The notes under the pieces: generated by a model
Databases searched by the model: none
Told to the model about the DNA's origin: nothing
What the model saw: only the letters and a program-made list of their open reading frames with translations
Shown here: positions 50,199 through 63,928 of the stretch, in pieces
Numbering within the stretch: the first letter of the stretch is position 1
Layout of the letters: each line of letters starts with the position of its first letter
Position numbers and translations under genes: made by a program
Assembly: GCA_027484085.1 (NCBI GenBank)
Contig: JAIXQF010000004.1
Coordinates: 960,162 to 1,024,161 of the forward strand
Source of the DNA: Actinomycetales bacterium
GTDB taxonomy: Bacteria; Actinomycetota; Actinomycetes; S36-B12; UBA5976
DNA: 64,000 bases
Direction of reading: 5' to 3'

Positions 50199-50723
50199 AT
50201 GACATGTAACTCTTATGTTGATGAGTCTGCGCGCTCACAGTACATGCTCTGCGGAGTCAATGTACGTCAGGAGAATCTGTCGGAGACAAGGAGTGCGCTA
50301 AAGGCGCTTACTCAAAGAGGTAAGTCAAGGGTTCACATGTATGAAGAAACTCGAGGGCGACAACACTATATTGCCCGCGAAATCAGCAATCTTGATGTTT
50401 CAGCTTGGTTAATCTCGGTTTCTAGCGCTACGTGCAAGCAGCCCGATTCTAGGTTTTTAGCCTTCAAGGCTCTTGCAGAAATCCGAATGCTCAAGGAGTC
50501 CCGAATCATGATCTTGGAGAACAGTAACTCAATGCGTCGCGACAATCGGACGTTAAATGAAGTTTCACGAAACGCCAGTTTCCAATTCCCCCATTACCGC
50601 CACATGAACTCTCGTCACGAACCTCTGCTTTGGCTGCCAGACATCATCGCTTGGTGCTACGGCCGTGGAGGCACTTGGCGAGACACAGTTGGGCCGCTGG
50701 TCACTGAAGTTATCGAAATCTAA
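50199..50723 (+). CDS. DUF3800-like protein
   Basis: A 174-aa protein opening CNSYVDESARSQYMLCGVNV, which resembles the YVDESG--Y-L-G-V strand of DUF3800 and related RNase-H-like proteins. The first Asp-Glu could be catalytic. Next come ETRSALKALTQRGKSRVHM, where the loop RVHMYEE matches the LH--D/E motif, and a C-terminal LPDIIAWCYGRGGTW helix. Function of this group is unknown. Close relatives are often found singly in Actinobacteria. It starts ATG at 50199 and ends two bases before the convergent neighbour. Confidence 0.55.
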   Translation: MTCNSYVDESARSQYMLCGVNVRQENLSETRSALKALTQRGKSRVHMYEETRGRQHYIAREISNLDVSAWLISVSSATCKQPDSRFLAFKALAEIRMLKESRIMILENSNSMRRDNRTLNEVSRNASFQFPHYRHMNSRHEPLLWLPDIIAWCYGRGGTWRDTVGPLVTEVIEI

Positions 50724-50725
50724 TC

Positions 50726-51091
50726 CTAATAAGCCGGTGCGATTAATCCGAAATACTCAGCCAGCGATCTGATCTTCCTGCGGAAGCGACCAATCCGAAC
50801 ATAGTTGCACCAAAGAGACATTCGCATCCCATACCAAAACTGCCCTGGCTCCCAATAGAAATTGGTTCTTGGGATTCGCTTCCAGTAAGTGAACTCACCG
50901 GAGAGTCGATCGTAAGAGATGGCTTCTCTTGGCAACATCACTGGTTCGTCGGCAAACGGATTTTCTTGCATGTATTCGATGGCGTATTCCAGATACTCCT
51001 CTTCGGAGATCTCATCCATATCGCGCCAACCACAGCGCATTCTCACATGAGCCTCAATGGCCAGCTGGTCTTCCTTAAAGTCCAAGTCCAC
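50726..51091 (-). CDS. Hypothetical protein
   Basis: A 121-aa acidic protein with no signal peptide or membrane helix and no recognised family. Visible features: an Asp/Glu-rich N-terminal half (EISEEEYLEYAIEYMQEN) followed by a Trp/Tyr-rich basic stretch (FTYWKRIPRTNFYWEPGQFWYGM) and KIRSLAEYFGLIAPAY at the end. It converges on the DUF3800-like gene with a two-base gap and diverges from the serine hydrolase gene. Confidence 0.5.
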   Translation of the reverse strand: MDLDFKEDQLAIEAHVRMRCGWRDMDEISEEEYLEYAIEYMQENPFADEPVMLPREAISYDRLSGEFTYWKRIPRTNFYWEPGQFWYGMRMSLWCNYVRIGRFRRKIRSLAEYFGLIAPAY

Positions 51092-51179
51092 TCCAGGTTT
51101 GCGCCGGTTTGTTGTTTATAAGGCTAAAGGCTCACTCGACATTTGGGAAGACCTGGTCTTGAGTTAATCTGAATCCACT

Positions 51180-52112
51180 ATGGGCAAAGTTGTGGATCTA
51201 GATTCGGCAAGCGAGAGGCTTGCCAAGGCTAAGCACCTAGATCCAGCAATCATTTGGACCAATCAATCTGGCACTCAATCAATTGGCCCAATTGATCAGC
51301 GATGGGAAATCGGATCAATCACAAAAGTTTTCACCGCGCTGTTGCTAGCCAAACTCCACACATCCAATCGTCTGGACATGGCCACACCAGTTGCCCAATA
51401 CCTGCCCAAGTCCCTGGTGTTGCCTGCGAACTTCCACCAAATCACTTTTGAACATCTTGCAACTCATCGATCTGGCTTGCCACGATTGCCAGCTGGAATG
51501 AAACTTTTTGGCAAAGACGCAATGGTTGATCCTTATGCGATCTTTTCCCAAGAGCGGGTTTACCAAGCCATCCAAGAAACGAAACTAAAGCGCACCCCAG
51601 GAACAAAGGGACCAAGGTATTCCAACTATGGCTTTGGATTACTTGGATTCGTTCTAGGGCTATCCCAAGAACAAACCTATGAACAGTTGTTGCAATCTGA
51701 AGTTCTGACTCCCCTCGGCCTAACTTCGGCCACGTTCACAGATGAAGGATTGCGCGTTGGACATGCCCGCAATAAGGAAGTGAGTCCCTGGCACATGGGC
51801 GACTTCAAAGCCATGGGCGGGCTTCGAATGACTGCTTCTGACCTAGATAAATTCCTCGTCCTATCCCAAGATCCAAACCATGAGCTATCGGCAGCCTTCG
51901 CCGAGACTTTCAAGATTCGGTATCAAGCAAAGCGTTCAGCTATTGGCCTGGGCTGGATGTTCCTCAAGGACAACAAGATCGTTGGTCATAACGGTGGCAC
52001 CCGAGGCGCTCGCACCGAAGCGTTCATAAACCTGGAAACCAATAGTCGAGTTGTAGTTTGCGGCGATGGCAACGGCGGAACATTCCCGGTAGCGATTGAT
52101 TTACTCAGCTGA
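51180..52112 (+). CDS. Serine beta-lactamase-like hydrolase (class C/PBP4* type)
   Basis: A 310-aa penicillin-recognising-fold hydrolase. The catalytic SxxK is S46-I-T-K49 in WEIGSITKVFTALLLAK. The YxN motif is Y147-S-N149, and the third motif reads HNGGTRG, as in esterase/DD-peptidase-like members. No signal peptide is seen, so it is probably cytosolic, unlike true beta-lactamases. The substrate is unknown. TAATCT lies nine bases before the ATG, giving an almost leaderless mRNA. The 3' end overlaps the convergent gene by 12 bases. Confidence 0.8.
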   Translation: MGKVVDLDSASERLAKAKHLDPAIIWTNQSGTQSIGPIDQRWEIGSITKVFTALLLAKLHTSNRLDMATPVAQYLPKSLVLPANFHQITFEHLATHRSGLPRLPAGMKLFGKDAMVDPYAIFSQERVYQAIQETKLKRTPGTKGPRYSNYGFGLLGFVLGLSQEQTYEQLLQSEVLTPLGLTSATFTDEGLRVGHARNKEVSPWHMGDFKAMGGLRMTASDLDKFLVLSQDPNHELSAAFAETFKIRYQAKRSAIGLGWMFLKDNKIVGHNGGTRGARTEAFINLETNSRVVVCGDGNGGTFPVAIDLLS

Positions 52113-53819
52113 GCAAACGATGTCAACATCCGGTAAATAGCCATCAACTAAGTACTTCGTTATTGCGTCATCAATGCAGGCAATTCCCGCAAATGATGTC
52201 ACATGGCCAGATCCTTCATATGTAAGGAGACGAGATTGCATACGCGCCGCTGTGTCGCGGGCATTCTCAATTGGTGTGACGGTGTCTAGTTTTGAACCGA
52301 TGAACAAGAAGGTTTGCCCTGACTTGTTTACTGGAGTTTCCATACTCGCTGGTGGGTCTGGGATATTTGGATCATCAAAAGCTAGCCATGACCATTCACA
52401 GCCTCCTCGATCCCCGACATATACATATCCTGAATCTGAGGCAAAGAATTCGGAAGTAAACGGATCAGCTTCGGCATAAATCTTTTCGTCTTCGATTACT
52501 TCTTCTTTAGTCCGCAGATCCCGGCTATCGGTATCCAGGCAGTTAACTATGTTGAGCAAGTCTTCGGAATTGTCTCGCTCCCACTCGCCATCTTTTTCAT
52601 AATTTGGAGTCCAGCCATAGAGAACTAGTGCTTCAAACTCAAAGTCCCATGCATCTCCAGCTACTAGCGAATTCATCGCATCAGAAAAATATGGGTAATA
52701 ATCCTCGGTTGCGGCATAACTCATCGACAAGAGACCATTGAAAATCAGTTCATCATCTGAGTTCACAAACTCATCATCTGAGGCCAAACTCGATAAGTTC
52801 TTTGCCGCACCAGAAATCTTTCCTGCATTGGCTTTATCTTGGGCAGCAAAAATGATTTCTTCAACTTCCGCAACAGAATCCCCTGGGCACTTCTTATCTT
52901 TTGCGCACAGTTCAAAGAGCGCCATGAAGGCTTTGTAAGTGCTTTCTAACTCGGCTTGATTATCGCCAGTGTCGTCATTTGATGTAACGCTATCTAAAAC
53001 GATTCGCCCGGCATTCTCTGGAAATGCCCGAATGTATTCCACGGCCAATGTTGTGCCATAGGACATCCCAACAAAGTTCAGCTTGTCTTCACCAGCAACC
53101 ACTTCACGCATGATGTCCATGTCTTGGACGGTGTTCAAGGTAGTCATAACCCACCAAGTTGGATTCAACTTAGCGCAAGCGGCGACAGATTCCTGATGCC
53201 ATTTACTGTTAGCAATTCCTTCCTGCTCATTCTCAGGAGAAGACACCGTCTCGAAGTAGTAATCGATCGAAGCACTGTCGTCACAACGAATTGGAGAAGA
53301 CTTGCCGACACCGCGAGGATCAAAACCGACAATGTCATACTTCTGTCGAATCTCGTTAGGAACTTCTATCCGCTGCAAAATCTCGATGCCAGAGCCGCCT
53401 GGACCACCCGGATTAAAGAACAGCGTGCCAAGCTTGTTTGCCTGATCGAGTGCTGGTGATTTCAAAACAGCAATGTTCAAGTCAGGTAAATCTCTGCCAA
53501 ATTCAGATGAATAACTTGCTGGCACATTAAACGAAGCACACTGAGCCGTATCGGCTTCAAAGCCATCATTTTGATAATCAGAAGGAAGGATCGAATCTTC
53601 AGAACAAGATTCCCATGACACAGACTGAGCCAGGTAAGTATCAAGATTCAGGTCACCCGTCGCAGACACCGGAGCTTCAGTGCCTGGGCTCAAATACCCG
53701 TACCCATATCCAGCTGCACCTGCCACCAAGATAAACACCAGCGCGGTAGCCAAAGCACGAATTACTGATGTACCTGATTCTGGTTCAAGATCTTGGTCTT
53801 GGTCATATAGCTCGGTCAT
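52101..53819 (-). CDS. Membrane-anchored alpha/beta hydrolase with TAP-like C-terminal domain
   Basis: A 572-aa exported hydrolase of the tripeptidyl-aminopeptidase (TAP) type. An acidic N-terminus precedes an uncleaved anchor helix at about 20-40. The oxyanion strand FFNPGGPGGSGIEIL comes before the nucleophile elbow GMSYGT with Ser-253. The C-terminal TAP-like domain includes PVNKSGQTFLFIGSKLDTVTP and SGHVTSFAGIACIDD, where the catalytic Asp and His are expected. It would trim peptides outside the membrane. AGGAG lies before the ATG. Confidence 0.87.
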   Translation of the reverse strand: MTELYDQDQDLEPESGTSVIRALATALVFILVAGAAGYGYGYLSPGTEAPVSATGDLNLDTYLAQSVSWESCSEDSILPSDYQNDGFEADTAQCASFNVPASYSSEFGRDLPDLNIAVLKSPALDQANKLGTLFFNPGGPGGSGIEILQRIEVPNEIRQKYDIVGFDPRGVGKSSPIRCDDSASIDYYFETVSSPENEQEGIANSKWHQESVAACAKLNPTWWVMTTLNTVQDMDIMREVVAGEDKLNFVGMSYGTTLAVEYIRAFPENAGRIVLDSVTSNDDTGDNQAELESTYKAFMALFELCAKDKKCPGDSVAEVEEIIFAAQDKANAGKISGAAKNLSSLASDDEFVNSDDELIFNGLLSMSYAATEDYYPYFSDAMNSLVAGDAWDFEFEALVLYGWTPNYEKDGEWERDNSEDLLNIVNCLDTDSRDLRTKEEVIEDEKIYAEADPFTSEFFASDSGYVYVGDRGGCEWSWLAFDDPNIPDPPASMETPVNKSGQTFLFIGSKLDTVTPIENARDTAARMQSRLLTYEGSGHVTSFAGIACIDDAITKYLVDGYLPDVDIVCSAE

Positions 53820-53909
53820 TTCAGCTCCTACCGCCTGTGTTGCTAATCAGAGTAACCAAGATGTCTGACAATTATTTGGTATCGATGAGAGCTATGCGAG
53901 CAAATATTT

Positions 53910-56354
53910 CTAGGTGTTGTCGCCGATTCCTAGGCGACATCCAACTCCTTGGACACAGGTGATCCCTGGAATGGCCCATGACATTGACGTAAGTTCCCAC
54001 CACAACAATGAACTACCAAATATGGCTTTAGATGAAAGCGCTGCGCAATCCGTATTATCAACTTTGCAGAGGGCAGAAGTCGCCTTTAGCCTCAATCCAA
54101 TTGCTTGATTTGTAGACTCAAACGATGACTCAGTTAACGCCTTAATGACCTTGTCCGTGGAGTTTCGGTGAAGCGCGACGGTTCCAAGAATGAACTCATT
54201 CCAAATCAAATCTGAATCTTGTTCATTTTGGAGAGAGTTTCTTACAAGAGTCAATAGAGTTTGCTCATTTGCAATTGGATTCAAAGCAATGCGGTATTGA
54301 AGCTCATAATCTCCAGATTTCGCAAGCTCTTCAAGCAAGTCCGAGTTGACACTGGGTGACAATACAACTGAAGCTGCCGGGCATTTTGTTCGATTAAAAT
54401 CATCGCTACCATCTCCAGCAAATGGATAAACCTGCATCTTTTTGACAGCAGGCATCACTGATGGGTCAATCAAATCTGCACCACTCAACACTGCGAAATA
54501 GGTTCCAACAAATTCGAAATCTTCTGCAATTAGCTCAAGCAAGGAATGCGAAATCATGTAACCAAAGTCCTTGGAAATACCTTCATCAATTAGGTCTTCA
54601 ATTACTTCCACGAATCGATGTTCGTTAACGGTAAAGAGCTTCTTCATTTGCTCAACTACCCTTGCGGCGGAATCATCCGACTTCTCGCGAGAATCAGCAA
54701 ATGATGCACGTAGTTCATCTTCTAGCGAAGGTTCTGCCCTTAGTGACTGAAGCAAGTCTGAAAACTCGTAATCAAGATTAGTGTCAGCAATGCGAATAAA
54801 ATCATCAAGATTATCGCTCAAGAAATCTAAGTCTAAAGACTCTCTTATGTGCATTCTAGTTTCTTCGGATAACGCTGGATTCAAAAATGCCGCGTACTTT
54901 AATAGCAAGGACTGGCAATCTACTACTTGCTGTAGGATGCGCTCATCACAGACATGCAGAATTGCGCTTAGCTTTTCCAAGGTTCCGGAGTATTCTTCGC
55001 CTTCTTTTTCGAGTGGCTCATCATAATATTGAAGGTAGCCAGCATTCTCGTCTGCGACAATCGAAGTAATTTCATCAACTCTCTTGGTGTCCGAAGTTTC
55101 AGGACGTGACGCAACAATTGCAGGCATGGGATCGATTAAGACGGAGTAACAATCCTTGAAAATCCCAATTAGTGATGGGCAAAAACCAAGTACATAGATT
55201 CTTGGAATCAATGAAAAGACTTCAATTAATTCACTGGGCAAAGAAGGCGTGGGTTTAGTGAAATTCCATTGAACATTAATCGTTTCTGGAAACGGCGAGA
55301 GAAACTTATTGCTTCTGTTGGCCGCCATCAAATAAAGTCCCTTCGGGTACCAGAAATCCTCTAAGTGTTGCCAGTCATAAAATTCGTGTTCAACAATTGC
55401 ACCAATCTCGCAGAGTAATTCAAATTCCTCTATCTCAAAAGGCACTTCATCGCCAGCTTCGAAGCCAAAACCTGCATTGTTTAAGAAGTCACCACGTGAA
55501 GCAAAATCATTGAAGAAAACCTCAAAATATCTCTCAAGTGAGACGCCAATTCTTGTCAGTTCACTTAGAAGGACTTCATCATCGGCATAAAAGTCACCTC
55601 GAAATGAGCCATCGGAGTTTGTTGCAAACAATGGGATCCCAGTATTGATCGTTCTGAGATGCAGTTCCTGTTGATTGTTTAGAGTCATAAAATCAGGGTC
55701 GTAGTTCAATGACTCTGACAATAAAAATCTGAACATTTCATCTACGTTCTCATCAAAATCTAAACCAATGAGCGACTCGAGTTCATTTCTTGCTTTTACC
55801 CTCCTTGTATCGTGTTCCGTTCCAGAACTATTTGGGCAGCTGCAATTTGCCAATCCTGCTTCGTAAATCCAGCCATAGATAAAAACTCTTAGATTAGAGT
55901 TTCCTTGCAATCCCTCTGAATCAACTTCAAAAGCGCTTTGGCAAAGTTCAATCACTACATCTGAAGGTGTCGAGCCAAATCGACCACAAACGAATGCCTC
56001 TAGTAAAGACCGACCGTTTATGGCTTCAAAAACATCAGATTCCGTCTCAAGTGCTTCATGAACCTGCTTTAAGACATTACCTAGTGTGGCGTAGTCTCCA
56101 TCAGGGTCAACTCCCCCAATCCAATGACATAGATCCTTCCATGTCTGATCTATCAAGCCATCGATCTCGTTGGATGTGAAACGATCAAGTTTGCTTGTGT
56201 CATACCGACTGTCACTTACCGTTCGAAGAGTAATCGATTGCAGTGCAAGTGGAACGCCAGCATCATTGTGCTTAAAGAAGTTTTCAAATTCAGGATCGTT
56301 CCCAAACGCATCGTAGAAGTCTGCGATGAGTTTGCCCTTTTGATTAACATTCAT
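53910..56354 (-). CDS. Large protein of unknown function with LRV-like repeats (paralog B of a three-gene operon)
   Basis: About 814 aa starting MNVNQKG, as its upstream paralog does (an in-frame ATG at 56369 is possible). Residues 1-550 match the paralog along their length: an N-terminal helical LIADFYDAFGNDPEFENF block, a CxC pair (NCSCP), FWYPKGLYLMAANRS, a SLIPRIYVLG strand and a DPMPAIVASRPE loop. The last third has helical repeats such as LLEELAKSGDYELQYRIALN followed by PIANEQTLLTLV, the style of leucine-rich repeat variant (LRV) or HEAT-like solenoids. No catalytic motif is recognised. It is acidic and AT-rich in codon choice compared with the core genes. Confidence 0.55.
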   Translation of the reverse strand: MNVNQKGKLIADFYDAFGNDPEFENFFKHNDAGVPLALQSITLRTVSDSRYDTSKLDRFTSNEIDGLIDQTWKDLCHWIGGVDPDGDYATLGNVLKQVHEALETESDVFEAINGRSLLEAFVCGRFGSTPSDVVIELCQSAFEVDSEGLQGNSNLRVFIYGWIYEAGLANCSCPNSSGTEHDTRRVKARNELESLIGLDFDENVDEMFRFLLSESLNYDPDFMTLNNQQELHLRTINTGIPLFATNSDGSFRGDFYADDEVLLSELTRIGVSLERYFEVFFNDFASRGDFLNNAGFGFEAGDEVPFEIEEFELLCEIGAIVEHEFYDWQHLEDFWYPKGLYLMAANRSNKFLSPFPETINVQWNFTKPTPSLPSELIEVFSLIPRIYVLGFCPSLIGIFKDCYSVLIDPMPAIVASRPETSDTKRVDEITSIVADENAGYLQYYDEPLEKEGEEYSGTLEKLSAILHVCDERILQQVVDCQSLLLKYAAFLNPALSEETRMHIRESLDLDFLSDNLDDFIRIADTNLDYEFSDLLQSLRAEPSLEDELRASFADSREKSDDSAARVVEQMKKLFTVNEHRFVEVIEDLIDEGISKDFGYMISHSLLELIAEDFEFVGTYFAVLSGADLIDPSVMPAVKKMQVYPFAGDGSDDFNRTKCPAASVVLSPSVNSDLLEELAKSGDYELQYRIALNPIANEQTLLTLVRNSLQNEQDSDLIWNEFILGTVALHRNSTDKVIKALTESSFESTNQAIGLRLKATSALCKVDNTDCAALSSKAIFGSSLLWWELTSMSWAIPGITCVQGVGCRLGIGDNT

Positions 56355-56444
56355 CGTATCAAGTTCCATTCAATCTCTATCAGGGACACGAGCAAACTTC
56401 GTGTTCATCGGATTACATCAATTTACTAGCGGGCTTAATGACGC

Positions 56445-58067
56445 CTAATCTCGAAACGTCTTTAGCAATTCAGCAAATTCATAGTCTCGGCTCTCTTCTG
56501 CTGAACTAATAAATTCTTCTAACTCGTCATGGATGTATTCCAGGTCTAACTCTTCCATCAGCGACTCTCTAGCCTCGAGAGAAAGAGCTGGATTTAGGAT
56601 CATCGCATGACTAAGCAAACCTGAGCCAAGCCCCGCCAATTTTTTCAGAGATTCTTGGTCATTTACGTACAATGTGGCAGCAATGTCAGTGAACCATGTG
56701 GTCAAGATTGATTCACTTTCAATTGAATCATCGTAGGCATAACCTTCAAGATCACCGCTCGTCATGCGCTCTCTTAGGTCTGTTAGCTGCTGAATTCTGA
56801 GAGAATCCTGAATTTCCGATCGAGTCATTACGAGGCCGGGCATGGGATCAATAAAGACATAATGACATTCCTGAAGGATCTCACCAAGTAATTCATTTTG
56901 AGAAAAAACCCTAAACCTTGGAATTAAAGAGAGAATCTCCTGTAGGTCAAGCGGGAAAAATCCAGGCGGTTCACCGCTTAGTTCATAATTCCAGCGCGTT
57001 TCTGTTCCTTCCGGAATCTTGCCAGGGAATCGGCTACTGCGGTTTGCCACCGCCGTATAGAGAGCTCTCGGATACCAGTTTTCATCTTCGAACACGTAAT
57101 TCACGAAGTCTTCTTCGTCTACACCATTTACCTCGTCGCGCAAAAACTCATACTCTTCAATTGCTTGATCCAGGCCCTCGCTGCCGTCAACGAGCATGTC
57201 AGATTCGACATACCTTAGATTGGTGAATACGAAATTGCCCGTTTCTAAAAAGTTTTGACTTGTCGCATCAATGAATTCATCAAAGTTTTTTCCAAGTGAC
57301 TCAATAAACTTCCTATGCGGCTCATACTTGCCTGGATCTAATTTGCCTTCTTTGGTGAAGGCACATGATGGGTCATCAAAGTCCAAAGCGGAACCGCGTT
57401 TAAATGCTTGATCGTCCATCAATTTATCTAACTTGCCCGTTTTGGTAGCCCTTACAATTAAGTAGGCGAGTATATTTCGATATCCGGTTTCCGGGAGTTC
57501 ATCAATACTTATTTGATTCAGCATTTCGCCGAACGGTTCAAATCTCTCGCTGTGTTCTTTACTACAAAAACATTTCTTGTCTCTTAGGCCTGACAGTGCT
57601 CCGTATATAAAGATCCTTAAGTGAGCGTTTTGGTCATCAGCGAAAGCAATCGGAACTAAATTTTCGAGCGCATCTATTGTCCATGCGCTGTACTTCCCCA
57701 GTGTGTATGTTTCTGATTTGTCTGAAGTCTCAATTCTTTCAAGAATCTCATCTACGCTTGCAAGAACTGGCATCCTATAATCGAGAAGTTCGGATAGTGA
57801 CTCAAATTCTAAATCTGGATTTATGTCTCCTAATTCATGGCAAAGTCCTACCCAAGCATTGTTGATTAACCTATCGACTTCATCTGAATTCACGTCATCA
57901 AATTCTTGTGGGTCTACCAAGTCATCTTGCCGCTCCACTCCCGCAACTGCATAGACAGACAGAGCTACGCCGTATTTTCGCATCGTAAAATACGTTCTAA
58001 ATTTTGGATCTTCTCGGAACCGCTTGTAAAACTCGAAGATTAGATTCCCTTTTTGATTAACATTCAT
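56445..58067 (-). CDS. Large protein of unknown function (paralog A of the same operon)
   Basis: A 540-aa acidic protein that shares with the downstream gene the start MNVNQKGNLIFEFYKRF, the FIYG-----CxC region (KCFCSKE), WYPRALYTAVANRS, SLIPRFRVFS, DPMPGLVMTRSE, and the end block ILNPALSLEARESLMEELDLE to LLKTFRD. It ends where the paralog's C-terminal extension begins. Its ATG overlaps the stop of the membrane protein gene by four bases, so the pair is coupled. The conserved Cys pair might bind metal or be redox-active. No known family was recognised. Confidence 0.58.
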   Translation of the reverse strand: MNVNQKGNLIFEFYKRFREDPKFRTYFTMRKYGVALSVYAVAGVERQDDLVDPQEFDDVNSDEVDRLINNAWVGLCHELGDINPDLEFESLSELLDYRMPVLASVDEILERIETSDKSETYTLGKYSAWTIDALENLVPIAFADDQNAHLRIFIYGALSGLRDKKCFCSKEHSERFEPFGEMLNQISIDELPETGYRNILAYLIVRATKTGKLDKLMDDQAFKRGSALDFDDPSCAFTKEGKLDPGKYEPHRKFIESLGKNFDEFIDATSQNFLETGNFVFTNLRYVESDMLVDGSEGLDQAIEEYEFLRDEVNGVDEEDFVNYVFEDENWYPRALYTAVANRSSRFPGKIPEGTETRWNYELSGEPPGFFPLDLQEILSLIPRFRVFSQNELLGEILQECHYVFIDPMPGLVMTRSEIQDSLRIQQLTDLRERMTSGDLEGYAYDDSIESESILTTWFTDIAATLYVNDQESLKKLAGLGSGLLSHAMILNPALSLEARESLMEELDLEYIHDELEEFISSAEESRDYEFAELLKTFRD

Positions 58068-59056
58068 TTTCTTCTACCTATCCAAATAGCGATCGCTGTA
58101 GATGTAAGTGCAATTGAGAGTCCCACAATTCCGCGTGGATTATTTAGTTTTTCGAGTTCAGCAGTAAGCCACACTGGTACTAGCGCCGCAATAGCAATAA
58201 TCAAGCCGGTGCGATTTAGCGCTGAAGAATTATTTACTTCCAACGCTCGATGCAGGTCTTGAAGTTCCTTGCCGAAAGCGTCAAACTTCTGCTCAATACT
58301 TAGTAGTGCCCTAAGTTCTCGATAAATCCTGCGTGACTCAAGATCAATAAATGCATCACTCCACTCCAGATTATGGCGATAACTTATGAACTTTTCACTA
58401 AATTTTTTGATTTCAGATTTATTGCCAGTTGAGGATGGCCAAGAGTTGTTAAGCATCTCTATCGCAAAGCTTTGTAGGGCCACAACCGCTAGTACATGTG
58501 AACATCTGCTGTGTAAAAATCTTGATTGACTTTTGTCTGTTAGGAATTCAAGCACATGGTCTCCTGCGGACAATACTTCAGGATCGTGCATGTTTTCGTG
58601 CATGACTGCGATACCACGCGTGGCAATCGAATGCATCTCCACATCACCTTGGAAAATCTTCTGAATAAATGTGGCTGATTTACTCGTTCTCGTTCGAGTT
58701 ATCCATTCGATCTCTCTTCTTCGGAAGTCATCCGTCGTACTCGCGTGATAATGGGTGCTGTCCTCAATGTGAATCAAGAGCAAATCGGGTAATCCATCTG
58801 GGCTGTGTAACCATTCCAGTCCCACAACGTCCATACTGTGATTGATTTCTACTGGCTCGCGCCAAAGTGATACAGACTTTCGATTCAGTGTGGACTGGAG
58901 CGGAAGCGGGAGTTCAGATTTAACTAAATCAGTTGCAGGCGATCCTGGCGCCCCAGCAGCTGTAACAGTACGGAGTGGCCCAGATTCCCAATCTTGGTTG
59001 GAAATCGATGGAGGAATTTCTTGATTTTTCATCGGCAGAGCGATTATGACGTCCAC
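58064..59056 (-). CDS. Membrane-anchored protein with C-terminal helical hairpin, first gene of the three-gene operon
   Basis: A 330-aa protein. GTG at 59056 is a firm start: GGGAGG (59064-59069) lies seven bases upstream. The first 280 residues are soluble and contain EWITRTRTSKSATFIQKIF and HVLEFLTDKSQSRFLHSRCS, mostly helical, then a coiled-coil-like QKFDAFGKELQDLHRALE. Two membrane helices follow at about 284-300 and 309-327, ending RRK. The layout (large cytosolic part, short membrane hairpin at the C-terminus) would tether it to the inner membrane. No family is recognised. Coupled to paralog A by four bases. Confidence 0.6.
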   Translation of the reverse strand: MDVIIALPMKNQEIPPSISNQDWESGPLRTVTAAGAPGSPATDLVKSELPLPLQSTLNRKSVSLWREPVEINHSMDVVGLEWLHSPDGLPDLLLIHIEDSTHYHASTTDDFRRREIEWITRTRTSKSATFIQKIFQGDVEMHSIATRGIAVMHENMHDPEVLSAGDHVLEFLTDKSQSRFLHSRCSHVLAVVALQSFAIEMLNNSWPSSTGNKSEIKKFSEKFISYRHNLEWSDAFIDLESRRIYRELRALLSIEQKFDAFGKELQDLHRALEVNNSSALNRTGLIIAIAALVPVWLTAELEKLNNPRGIVGLSIALTSTAIAIWIGRRK

Positions 59057-59186
59057 TCTTTTGCCTCCCTAGCACTACGGTTAAAGCCTATTTCAAATGT
59101 CTGACTCTGCTGATAGAAACCTAAATAATGTTGCAAATTGGCCTCAAAAGTGGGTCGATGGCAATCAATAGAAATGGGTGCGATTT

Positions 59187-59327
59187 ATGGCTGATGTTTT
59201 AGTTTTCCTCTTTCTGATTCTTATTGGGTTAATGGTTATTTCACTCGTGGCTGCGATAGTTTTTGGCTTCTACATGGGATTGACGTACGAGCCGGAGAAA
59301 GACAAGTTTGTAGATTCAGTGGAGTGA
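59187..59327 (+). CDS. 46-aa single-helix membrane protein
   Basis: A short gene with ATG at 59187 and stop at 59325-59327. One long hydrophobic helix (FLFLILIGLMVISLVAAIVF) spans most of it, then GFYMGLTYEPEKDK and an acidic end. AATGGGTG upstream could serve as ribosome site. It is divergent from the three-gene operon across 130 bp and converges on the 77-aa gene. Charge distribution (acidic end) would put the C-terminus outside or on a partner. No homologue is recognised. Confidence 0.55.
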   Translation: MADVLVFLFLILIGLMVISLVAAIVFGFYMGLTYEPEKDKFVDSVE

Positions 59328-59358
59328 ATTGCCAGACAATTCGCGCGAGGCTAGGGAC

Positions 59359-59592
59359 CTAACTGACAACTTCCGACGCACGTACCAGTTTTTCGATGAC
59401 ATCAACCGGTATTCCGCCTCCATGATTTTGAAACAGATCGCTGCGCATCGCTTCAGCAGTTGGCCAAGATCCAGAAAAGTATCCCAACTTTCCACCCGGC
59501 CCATAGATCTCCAGGTAGGTCAGATCCCGTCCCCCGTAATCAATACCCGTATCACCCAGTTCTTCAAGAACCTCAATGGTTATCTGCCACAT
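59359..59592 (-). CDS. 77-aa hypothetical protein next to the HD hydrolase
   Basis: A small protein, WQITIEVLEELGDTG at the start and DYGGRDLTYLEIYGPGGKLG in the middle, probably alpha/beta. Its ATG directly follows the stop of the HD hydrolase gene (TAG-ATG), so it is cotranslated with it. No family is recognised; the fused-looking VDVIEKLVRASEVV end suggests a helix. Confidence 0.6.
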   Translation of the reverse strand: MWQITIEVLEELGDTGIDYGGRDLTYLEIYGPGGKLGYFSGSWPTAEAMRSDLFQNHGGGIPVDVIEKLVRASEVVS

Positions 59593-60216
59593 CTACTTAC
59601 CGGCTTGCTCGGTGGCCATTTCTGCAACAACTCGGCGCAGGCGTCCAACCAAAACATGATCAGCGCCAAAAGCTGATTCGAATACGGCCAATGCACTGGT
59701 GTAATACCAAATCACATCCTCGCGACCCGCATTAAACCGATCCCATACAACAGGCCCAACATGATGCAAGTCATTAACTATTGATTGTCCGTTAGCCAGC
59801 TTGTCCGCCAACGGCACCAACAACGCTTCGGGATCAGTCTCCTGATGTAGAGCCATTTCATTCAAATGTGCTTGTTTGCGAGATCGCCAAGTAGTTTCAT
59901 CCCTTGGCACCCCAGAACTTCCATCAGTTGCAGCTTCAACGAGTTCAAGCACTCGAGCGCCAAACATCTCGCTGATTACAACGTGGGTGACTTCGCCATT
60001 TGGCGTAGTCGACTGATCTTCTAGGGCGTCATGCAACAGCCCGGCAATCAACTGATCATCATTAGCCCCAACCTGAATCAGCAAACTCATCACATCAATC
60101 AGGTGGGTCAAGTAAGGAATCTTTGGCGCTTCCTCATCTGAATTCTTGCGATACTGGTCGCCATGCAACCATTCAGCTAGCGCAAAAGCTTGCGCGGTTT
60201 TTGTTTGTGGGATCAT
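59593..60216 (-). CDS. HD-domain hydrolase of RelA/SpoT type, possible small alarmone hydrolase
   Basis: A 207-aa HD protein. Metal ligands are visible as H38 in PYLTHLIDV, the H62-D63 pair in LLHDALEDQST (the HDxxED form typical of (p)ppGpp hydrolases) and the aspartate of LADKLANGQSI. There is no synthetase, TGS or ACT domain. By length and motifs it may belong to the stand-alone alarmone hydrolases or to other HD phosphohydrolases; the nucleotide is not known. It overlaps the upstream 56-aa gene by four bases. Confidence 0.75.
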   Translation of the reverse strand: MIPQTKTAQAFALAEWLHGDQYRKNSDEEAPKIPYLTHLIDVMSLLIQVGANDDQLIAGLLHDALEDQSTTPNGEVTHVVISEMFGARVLELVEAATDGSSGVPRDETTWRSRKQAHLNEMALHQETDPEALLVPLADKLANGQSIVNDLHHVGPVVWDRFNAGREDVIWYYTSALAVFESAFGADHVLVGRLRRVVAEMATEQAGK

Positions 60217-61064: not shown

Positions 61065-61496
61065 TTATGAAGCCAAATCCTCGACTCCAAGCTTTACCTT
61101 CCAGCGGAAACAGTGTCTAACCGTCATTTTGTACTTCATTGCAAAAGCCTCAGCGGTAATTCGCTTTAGGTCATTGCGGAAATCCACTGCAAACCGACGT
61201 TCTTCTAGTGTGAAAAGTGGCTTACCTTGGCGAAGCTTCTTTCGCTCCCCTGCTGTGGCGCCACCCCAAACGCCGAATTCTTCGGCAAAGGTTGCGTACT
61301 CAAGACAAGTGGCCTTTAGCGGACAGCCGCCGCAAATTTCCCGGGCTTGGTTGATCTCGACAATGTTGTCGCTGAAGAACAAGTTCAGGTCCGCACCCAC
61401 ACAAGCGCCACCCTTTGTGATCTCGGTTGGGATCTGCAGGTTCTCTAGGAACTCTGGGTAAAGGCCCGAAATCAAGTCTGACATTTCTCTTTTCAT
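61065..61496 (-). CDS. WhiB-family iron-sulfur regulatory protein
   Basis: A 143-aa Wbl protein. The four cluster cysteines are C32, C55, C58 and C64 (C-x22-C-x2-C-x5-C), and the beta-turn GVWGG is at 75-79, followed by the basic GERKKLRQ. Wbl proteins bind a 4Fe-4S cluster and usually act with the principal sigma factor on redox- or stress-linked promoters. The C-terminal 50 residues (AEAFAMKYKMTVRHCFRWK) look like an additional helix-turn-helix-like tail. AGGAG precedes the ATG at 61496. Confidence 0.9.
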   Translation of the reverse strand: MKREMSDLISGLYPEFLENLQIPTEITKGGACVGADLNLFFSDNIVEINQAREICGGCPLKATCLEYATFAEEFGVWGGATAGERKKLRQGKPLFTLEERRFAVDFRNDLKRITAEAFAMKYKMTVRHCFRWKVKLGVEDLAS

Positions 61497-61717: not shown

Positions 61718-62797
61718 ATGCAGGAACTAGATGGCGGTCTCGCAGCCGTAGTTATCCAAGATTTCGCCAAAGAAATCAAGGAATCGGCCGAAGCTGACCT
61801 GGATCAAAGACTCCGGGAAACGGCGTGTCGCGCTCTGCGAATTGACCCCAGCATGGTGCCTGGACGCCTGATCACTTCCCTATCCCGTGGTGCCGCTTCA
61901 ACCGCTTCTCGGGAACGCGCCAAAGACAGTATTGCCATGGTTTTGGGCAAATCGCTGAATTCAAGCGATCTGGATATCAGCTTTACGGACTCCTTCGACG
62001 CCGATCACATAATCAACGAAATCCTGGATGAAACCGAATCGCAACGTCGAGACACGCATGCCCTGCGCACTCAGGCATCCTTTATTCGAAGCGTCTGCCG
62101 TCCGCTTTACACATCTTGGATTGACGAGATCGAGAGCTCGGATGAGAGTGGATTGTTGCCACGTGAATACCTTGAGCGCAAGCAACAAGAGATGATTGAC
62201 TTCCCCATTAACTCCGAGTCCGACCTTAGGGATTGGCTTGGCTACATGTTCGATCGCTTCGACAATCTTTCAGATGTGAAAAAGGTGTCAAGTAGGTCTC
62301 AGGGTCGAATCAATTCAAGTGCCGTTCGCACCTATCGAAACGCTTGGATGACATTCACTACTCGAAACTTTGACAGCATTTGGCGCGAGATGCAGCGCCG
62401 AGCTGAAAACGGAGTAACGCCAAAGAATGTCCGCGATGAGCGATTCAAGCGCCCTCGTGAGTTATCTCGGACGATTGTCCGAATGGCAAGTTCCGAAGGT
62501 ATTGATTTGCATCCTGAGAAACCGCCGAAGATCACATCGGTCACAGCTACTCTTTTGGAAAATGGACCAAGTCCGATCAAGCTAACCAAGTCTTGGACCT
62601 CTGCGAAGTTTGCTCGCAATGAGATCCAAGCCTGGTTAGCTGATGCGGATGCGATTCTTGGCAAGAACCGAATAGATGTCGCAAGGCTTGATGTAACAGG
62701 CACTTCCGGACATGATCAGTTCTTGCTTGAAGAAGCGGAGTTACCCAGCATTTCTCTAATGTTTATTCGTTACCTTGATGCCAAGGCCAAGTATTAG
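61718..62797 (+). CDS. Hypothetical protein, 359 aa
   Basis: A soluble, largely helical, Arg/Glu/Ser-rich protein starting MQELDGGLAAVVIQDFAKEI. There is no signal peptide or membrane segment. Basic stretches such as ERFKRPRELSRTI and a W-x-R rich middle part (YRNAWMTFTTRNFDSIWREMQRRA) could bind nucleic acid. No family is recognised. Its promoter and possible operator are at 61665-61697. It is divergent from whiB, and its last four bases overlap the stop of the phosphatase gene. Confidence 0.6.
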   Translation: MQELDGGLAAVVIQDFAKEIKESAEADLDQRLRETACRALRIDPSMVPGRLITSLSRGAASTASRERAKDSIAMVLGKSLNSSDLDISFTDSFDADHIINEILDETESQRRDTHALRTQASFIRSVCRPLYTSWIDEIESSDESGLLPREYLERKQQEMIDFPINSESDLRDWLGYMFDRFDNLSDVKKVSSRSQGRINSSAVRTYRNAWMTFTTRNFDSIWREMQRRAENGVTPKNVRDERFKRPRELSRTIVRMASSEGIDLHPEKPPKITSVTATLLENGPSPIKLTKSWTSAKFARNEIQAWLADADAILGKNRIDVARLDVTGTSGHDQFLLEEAELPSISLMFIRYLDAKAKY

Positions 62798-63336
62798 GCC
62801 GCAGAGTTTGAGGACTTATTCTCAACAAACTCTGGAGCCCGCTCCACAAGCCAAGTCACGAAGTGGTTGTTGAACAACGCCATTTTTGAACGCTGCTTTC
62901 GGATCAACTTAATCGCATCTGCCGGTTGGTAGCCCGCGTGCATCAAAGTCAGCGCAGTTACCAGGCCAGATCGATTAAGGCCTGCTTGGCAGCGAATCAA
63001 GACTTGCTCACCGGCGTTCCAGCGATCAAATGCCCACTTGGATACGCGCAATAGTCGATCAGTATCGAAATGTTCAACGGAAGCATCAGCAAATCCGTAA
63101 CGCATCTCTTCAACTCCCCAACCCATTGGCTGGGCAAAGGAATACAGCGTCACAACTGCGTCGAATTGGCAGGAATCACCTAGGCCGGGTAGCGGCATTG
63201 AATAATTTACCGTTGCGTCGTCAGCCGTCCCACCCATGAAAAGTCCAGGCAGGATTTCAGCAAACAGTTCGGTTGGGTACTGGTCATCTGAATGCCAGCG
63301 TGGTGCGAACAGGTTATTTATTGGGGTTTTACTCAT
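62794..63336 (-). CDS. Dual-specificity/tyrosine-phosphatase-like protein, copy 2
   Basis: A 180-aa CX5R phosphatase. The catalytic loop is C116-QAGLN-R122-S in VLIRCQAGLNRSGLV. An early ILPGLFMGGTADD strand pair is typical of dual-specificity folds, and the helix after the loop ends RKQRSKMALFNN. The preceding gene encodes a close paralog. Substrates could be phosphoproteins, phosphoinositides or nucleotides; none is indicated. Start ATG at 63336. Confidence 0.78.
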   Translation of the reverse strand: MSKTPINNLFAPRWHSDDQYPTELFAEILPGLFMGGTADDATVNYSMPLPGLGDSCQFDAVVTLYSFAQPMGWGVEEMRYGFADASVEHFDTDRLLRVSKWAFDRWNAGEQVLIRCQAGLNRSGLVTALTLMHAGYQPADAIKLIRKQRSKMALFNNHFVTWLVERAPEFVENKSSNSAA

Positions 63337-63412: not shown

Positions 63413-63928
63413 TTATGATCCGCCGAATAGCCAATCAGAAGTATCAAGAGCAAGAAGCCAGCGTTCAAACTCTGGATTATGCATTACCCAAACACTTCGC
63501 TTAGCTCGAATCAGTTCAATTGCATCGTTAGCGGTGTAACCGGCAGCAATCATTACAAGAGTCACCACTAACGCGGAGCGATTAAGGCCAGCTAAACAAC
63601 GAACCAAGATTCGTTTTCCGGCTTGCCAATCGGCATACACATTGGCAACCAAGAAACGTAGGTCATCTACATCAAAGTCAGCGACTTCCCCATCGTGAAA
63701 TGCTTGGCGTAACTCACGAACTTGCCAATCAACCGGATTACTCCAGGCATGCAGTGTCACGACGGTGTCGAACGAGTCTTTTGTAATCTGTGGCTCGATT
63801 TCGGGCATGCCAATCATGTCGTTGTCTGCGGTGCCGCCAATCCAAAGTCTTGGCAGGACTTCAGTCCAAAGATCTTTAGGTGTGAAATCTTCGTAGTTAT
63901 GATCCTCAAACATTGGACGATCATTCAT
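63413..63928 (-). CDS. Dual-specificity/tyrosine-phosphatase-like protein, copy 1
   Basis: A 171-aa paralog of the next gene downstream. Catalytic loop C111-LAGLN-R117-S in ILVRCLAGLNRSALV, with VLPRLWIGGTADN near the start in the same place as ILPGLFMGGTADD of copy 2. The C-terminal RAKRSVWVMHNPEFERWLL also matches. Its ATG shares one base with the stop of the upstream gene (TAATG), so three genes are likely translated together. Both copies keep the catalytic Cys and Arg. Confidence 0.78.
   Translation of the reverse strand: MNDRPMFEDHNYEDFTPKDLWTEVLPRLWIGGTADNDMIGMPEIEPQITKDSFDTVVTLHAWSNPVDWQVRELRQAFHDGEVADFDVDDLRFLVANVYADWQAGKRILVRCLAGLNRSALVVTLVMIAAGYTANDAIELIRAKRSVWVMHNPEFERWLLALDTSDWLFGGS

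Follow-up and report, generated by a model that had tools for sequence, protein, structure and literature searches.

Systems of the RexAB type bring about abortive infection with two parts, one of which is a membrane effector. They and other two-part abortive-infection systems share with the three-gene locus described here (the trio) the combination of a presumed soluble sensor and a membrane protein within one operon, and we know of no sequence similarity between these systems and the trio. A second likeness concerns type III CRISPR immunity, in which divergent CorA proteins that combine a unique N-terminal domain with C-terminal membrane helices serve as membrane effectors (PMC10600005). The SAM-AMP activated CorA-like effectors (PADLOC models PDLC01043 and PDLC01174) resemble the membrane protein of the trio, P330, in that a soluble N-terminal part is followed by a C-terminal membrane part, the two being connected by a weak profile match in the stalk/first membrane segment. 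Nevertheless, P330 counts 330 aa against the 446-457 positions of the models, its partner is a pair of paralogues, its relative P339 is not matched, and there is no CRISPR, Cas10, phosphodiesterase or cas gene among the trio and the scanned neighbours.

The sequence analysed was a window of 64,000 nt (960,162 to 1,024,161) of contig JAIXQF010000004.1 of Actinomycetales bacterium GCA_027484085.1, and all positions below refer to this window unless a locus is named. Three long ORFs lie on the minus strand in one orientation between 59056 and 53910, in the order P330, P540 and P814 (Table 1). The operon-like layout claimed in the first-pass annotation is borne out by the common direction of the genes and by the ATGA that couples P330 to P540. 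The claimed four-base overlap holds at that junction and not at the next, where P540 and P814 are 75-90 bases apart. The GTG start codon of P330, at 59056, has a good ribosome-binding sequence in front of it, agggaggcaaaagaGTG. For P814 two start codons are available, the ATG at 56369 (819 aa) and a second ATG at 56354 (814 aa), and the start was placed at the latter because it aligns with the start of P540, MNVNQKG. The GC content of the three genes is 0.42, 0.43 and 0.45, whereas the remaining 58 ORFs of the window that reach 100 aa stand at 0.494 +/- 0.017. Indeed, they are the three lowest of all 61 such ORFs, in agreement with the AT-richness that had been remarked upon before.

Table 1. 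Features of the trio and of the inserted stretch in which it lies (window coordinates).
Feature	Coordinates	Strand	Description
P330	58064..59056	-	330 aa; soluble N-terminal part and two C-terminal hydrophobic segments; distant relative in another genus
P540	56445..58067	-	acidic, pI 4.4; paralogous to P814; its start overlaps the stop of P330 as ATGA
P814	53910..56354	-	acidic, pI 4.3; paralogy with P540 over residues 1-540, then ~275 additional C-terminal residues
Inserted stretch	about 51160..59375 (~8.2 kb)		missing from congeners G001 and G016
TAP-like alpha/beta-hydrolase	52101..53819	-	PF08386, PF00561; within inserted stretch
Beta-lactamase-family protein	51180..52112	+	PF00144; within inserted stretch
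46-aa ORF	59187..59327	+	one hydrophobic segment; divergent from P330; within inserted stretch; may not be a gene

The two large proteins were expected to be diverged paralogues, and they are 30% identical across the full length of P540 (540 residues; E 2e-65); therefore both frames are real genes. The motifs MNVNQKG, CxC, WYP, ANRS, SLIPR and IDPMP are conserved between them. By hydropathy neither of these strongly acidic proteins has a convincing membrane segment, and no signal peptide was evident by eye. A low-confidence AlphaFold2 model of a protein of this type was almost all-helical; two AlphaFold2 runs with two-row alignments gave pLDDT values of 43.7 and 38.8, too poor for use. An alpha-solenoid fold is a reasonable guess. 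The designation of the large proteins as repeat proteins finds slight backing in one LRV-like unit of P814 (LLEELAKSGDYELQYRIALNPIANEQTLLTLV, at about residues 671-712), which recalls the LRV proteins (PF01816). An LRV profile built from a protein of G484, a genome of the same class, scored 7.3 bits on P814 and was equalled by 2 of 2000 shuffled sequences, in a test that was partly after the fact as the LRV idea came from the G484 match itself. Unlike the LRV proteins, P814 shows no regular array, and Pfam gave no LRV match for it even with the cut-off relaxed to E 10. The internal repeats of P814 and P540 were no stronger than those of shuffled controls; this includes the best internal match, LNPALS (491-496, in the part common to both paralogues), which resembles the LRV-like unit.

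The two hydrophobic segments of P330 span residues ~277-304 and ~308-328, and the N-terminal part of the protein is of mixed strand/helix character in a low-confidence AlphaFold2 model. None of the three proteins reached a Pfam or NCBIfam family, as anticipated for proteins of undescribed kinds, and the earlier remark that no effector domain is visible agrees with the lack of any enzyme, nucleotide-binding or toxin domain in the trio. The PADLOC CorA-like models gave a weak match to the C-terminus of P330 (residues 212-299; E 2.6e-4, over residues 212-292) in the stalk/first membrane segment. However, they did not match P339, P330 had no match to CorA (PF01544) in Pfam, and a profile of 27 classical CorA proteins from relatives failed to match it (-1.9 bits; hhalign P 0.35). 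The GMN motif, which follows the first membrane helix, is absent from the translations of both P330 and P339. An assignment of P330 as CorA was rejected on these grounds. Since the CorA profile misses P330 and the PADLOC models miss P339, the resemblance could stem from a coiled coil or from membrane segments, and P330 has at most a CorA-like layout, as the divergent type III CRISPR effectors have. By these profile searches the P540/P814 pair is new to all three collections (Pfam, NCBIfam, PADLOC) and is judged to be an undescribed family, and P330 is nearly as new.

A comparison with the congeners G001 and G016 confirmed the suspected accessory location. In both genomes no more than ~1 kb separates the HD-domain gene (59593-60216; 83-84% identical proteins) from the orthologue of the gene at 50726-51091. 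DNA similarity to the congeners reaches ~59380 on one side and resumes at ~51150 (by eye) on the other. The stretch in between holds the trio, the TAP-like hydrolase gene, the beta-lactamase-family gene and the 46-aa ORF, and in G001 the site is occupied by a predicted 225-aa lipoprotein (by eye). The site is one of gene turnover, and the trio is part of its accessory cargo. An insertion in this genome is a simpler reading than a loss in the congeners because two congeners lack the stretch and because of the AT bias, and the trio was probably acquired horizontally. The two ends of the stretch have no word of 9 bases or longer in common. The suggestion that the neighbours might be defence genes did not hold for the four that were scanned: PADLOC recognised no defence gene among these and the trio, the only matches being the weak CorA-like ones.

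The genes around the site have features of their own. The HD protein (minus strand) is a single-domain protein that resembles the hydrolase part of RelA/SpoT (HD_4; partial match to NCBIfam spoT_relA, E 3.8e-17) and is a candidate small alarmone hydrolase beside the turnover site. Directly after its gene, a conserved minus-strand ORF of ~75 aa (59360-59583; MWQ...VEVLEELG..LTYLEIYGPGGK...), also found in G001 and G016, forms the right edge of the variable stretch. On the other side, the plus-strand ORF at 50199-50723 encodes a DUF3800-like protein (below cut-off, E 0.016), the orthologues of which lie nearby in the two congeners, apparently rearranged. Further away, the minus-strand ORF at 61065-61496 encodes a WhiB-like protein by its cysteine pattern (by eye), and the adjoining minus-strand ORFs at 62794-63336 and 63413-63928 have similar N-termini (LPGLFMGGTADD and LPRLWIGGTADN); the latter two are probably tandem paralogues, perhaps phosphatase-like.

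For P330 one convincing relative was found in the order, namely P339 of G036, a genome of another genus of the same family (25% identity, E 2e-15; tblastn 4e-15). It is encoded on contig RFTO01000097.1 of an Actinomycetota MAG, and this contig was the only one recovered when 84,980 genomes were scanned with the P330 alignment, in a pattern-limited search that can miss distant relatives. Downstream of P339, at a distance of at most about 45 bases and on the same strand, lies the gene of a 402-aa WG-repeat protein (PF14903). No other WG-repeat protein came up in the 43 family genomes searched, and none was found in the trio genome. By family search WG-repeat proteins are unrelated to P540 and P814, and the locus is an independent one in which the partner has been swapped. 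The pair is flanked by a complex-I-49-kDa-like gene and an aldehyde-dehydrogenase-like gene, and in G031, which has an 88% identical version of the latter, two other proteins, one of them Fic-like, are encoded in the same gap (families read by eye; Fic from HPFTDGNGR). Comparison of the trio and the G036 locus shows that both known P330-family loci are accessory with a large partner gene directly downstream, and on these two loci the recurring unit is a P330-type membrane protein with a variable large soluble partner, not the trio. Indeed, the idea of a fixed system of three genes that travels between genomes was not upheld: the trio was found nowhere else in the sample, and the sole relative of its membrane protein has the WG-repeat partner. 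This non-co-occurrence arises because P540 and P814 have no relative in the sample at all, not because the genes were found apart. Short GC-rich palindrome-like stretches (..CCCGCGCACT..TGCGCGGG..CTCACTCGTTTG..) were observed on both sides of the P339/WG pair and also in G031 (L026 1453-1554 and 4032-4054; L107 3100-3202); they may be dispersed repeats or terminators.

P540/P814 relatives were found neither in 60 near relatives nor in 166 genomes of the order, and none was found in 395 genomes of the class or 296 of the phylum, bar the weak match to the LRV-repeat protein in G484 (E 0.02, among the 395 class genomes). A 390-aa LRV-repeat protein from another family of the class (L089 1306-2478) is encoded upstream of a further ORF. 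No relatives of the trio were found in plasmids and phages by tblastn or in viral contigs, sequence searches of the PDB gave no relevant match, and a literature search on WG-repeat or LRV proteins in phage defence yielded nothing useful. Several further matches were dismissed as chance: a weak one to ClpB in G244 (L005); one of 38 aa in G012 (L007), out of frame with stops inside an amylase-like gene; those at L008 and L010, two other loci of the order with ordinary metabolic genes around them; and weak matches to the C-terminal part of the P330 profile in G508, G316, G493, G624 and G611 (L029-L033).

As the best reading, though with less than even confidence, we tentatively propose that the trio is a module of a sensor or regulator and a membrane effector, which acts in the manner of abortive-infection systems of the membrane-effector kind. 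P330 would sit in the membrane by a hairpin of two C-terminal helices, with its N-terminal part in the cytosol, whereas P540 and P814 would be cytosolic, acidic, helical proteins that arose by duplication of one ancestor and that bind P330, or its trigger, and keep P330 inactive. Upon a stimulus, most likely phage infection or another stress, the P540/P814 partner would alter its grip, after which P330 would open or disturb the membrane and growth would stop. The partner would be exchangeable, considering the WG-repeat protein that follows the same kind of membrane protein in the related genus. Phage defence is a common role of sensor-effector modules in variable loci, and we infer the function of the module from its layout: this reading is put forward because the layout, the accessory location and the partner exchange fit it. 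The common gene direction and the ATGA coupling, the hydrophobic segments of P330 beside none convincing in P540 and P814, the P339/WG locus, the turnover sites, the AT-richness, the weak PADLOC match and the precedent of the type III CRISPR CorA effectors speak in its favour, whereas the lack of a PADLOC defence neighbour, the missing matches of P330 to the CorA profile and of P339 to the PADLOC models, the poor structure models, the lack of an enzyme, nucleotide-binding or toxin domain and the restriction to two loci speak against it.

A more peaceful role is conceivable, though somewhat unlikely in our view: P330 could anchor its soluble partners in a membrane-tethered regulatory or scaffolding complex concerned with the envelope or ion balance, with no killing and no phage role. 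A soluble partner with a two-segment anchor would suit such a complex, WG-repeat proteins occur in many bacteria, and the TAP-like hydrolase and the beta-lactamase-family protein encoded in the inserted stretch belong to kinds that frequently work at the envelope. However, the patchy presence at turnover sites and the absence from nearly all relatives are ill-suited to a core envelope function. P330 could also be an ion transporter of a divergent CorA type that, together with regulatory partners, takes the place of the classical CorA missing from this genome. The trio genome has no PF01544 match whereas 33 of 60 relatives have one, and the PADLOC CorA-like matches fall in the stalk/first membrane segment; yet with the GMN motif missing from both P330 and P339, with P330 unmatched by the profile of the relatives' 27 CorA proteins, and with other congeners that lack PF01544 also lacking P330, we regard a transporter as very unlikely.

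That the three genes have no common function, having come in as orphan cargo with a mobile element or a prophage that has since decayed and being kept neutrally, would agree with their AT-richness, their lack of relatives and the accessory site. It is nevertheless quite improbable considering the three long intact frames, the conserved motifs kept by paralogues at 30% identity, and the fact that another genus has likewise kept P330 next to a partner gene downstream, to which may be added that no phage, plasmid or viral-contig match and no shared word at the ends of the stretch were found. Large acidic proteins with a membrane partner are also reminiscent of toxin-antitoxin-like or interbacterial contact systems; the large proteins would then be delivered or exposed at the surface. 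The lack of a signal peptide by eye, and of a secretion or toxin domain in the family searches, makes this highly doubtful.

The sensor-effector reading can be taken one step further, to a claim that we consider unlikely as it stands: the two loci may belong to a novel family of modules, for defence or stress, in small-genome actinobacteria, which would combine one membrane effector family with interchangeable large cytosolic recognition proteins. The recognition part would have been swapped, with tandem acidic helical paralogues here and a WG-repeat protein there, while the effector stays. More loci could be sought by a simple rule, namely a turnover site where the gene of a large soluble, often repeat-bearing protein directly follows that of a P330-type membrane protein with two segments. 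If the sensor-effector reading proposed above holds, the module would bring to light, among small-genome actinobacteria, a family of membrane effectors that is undescribed and whose partners can be exchanged.
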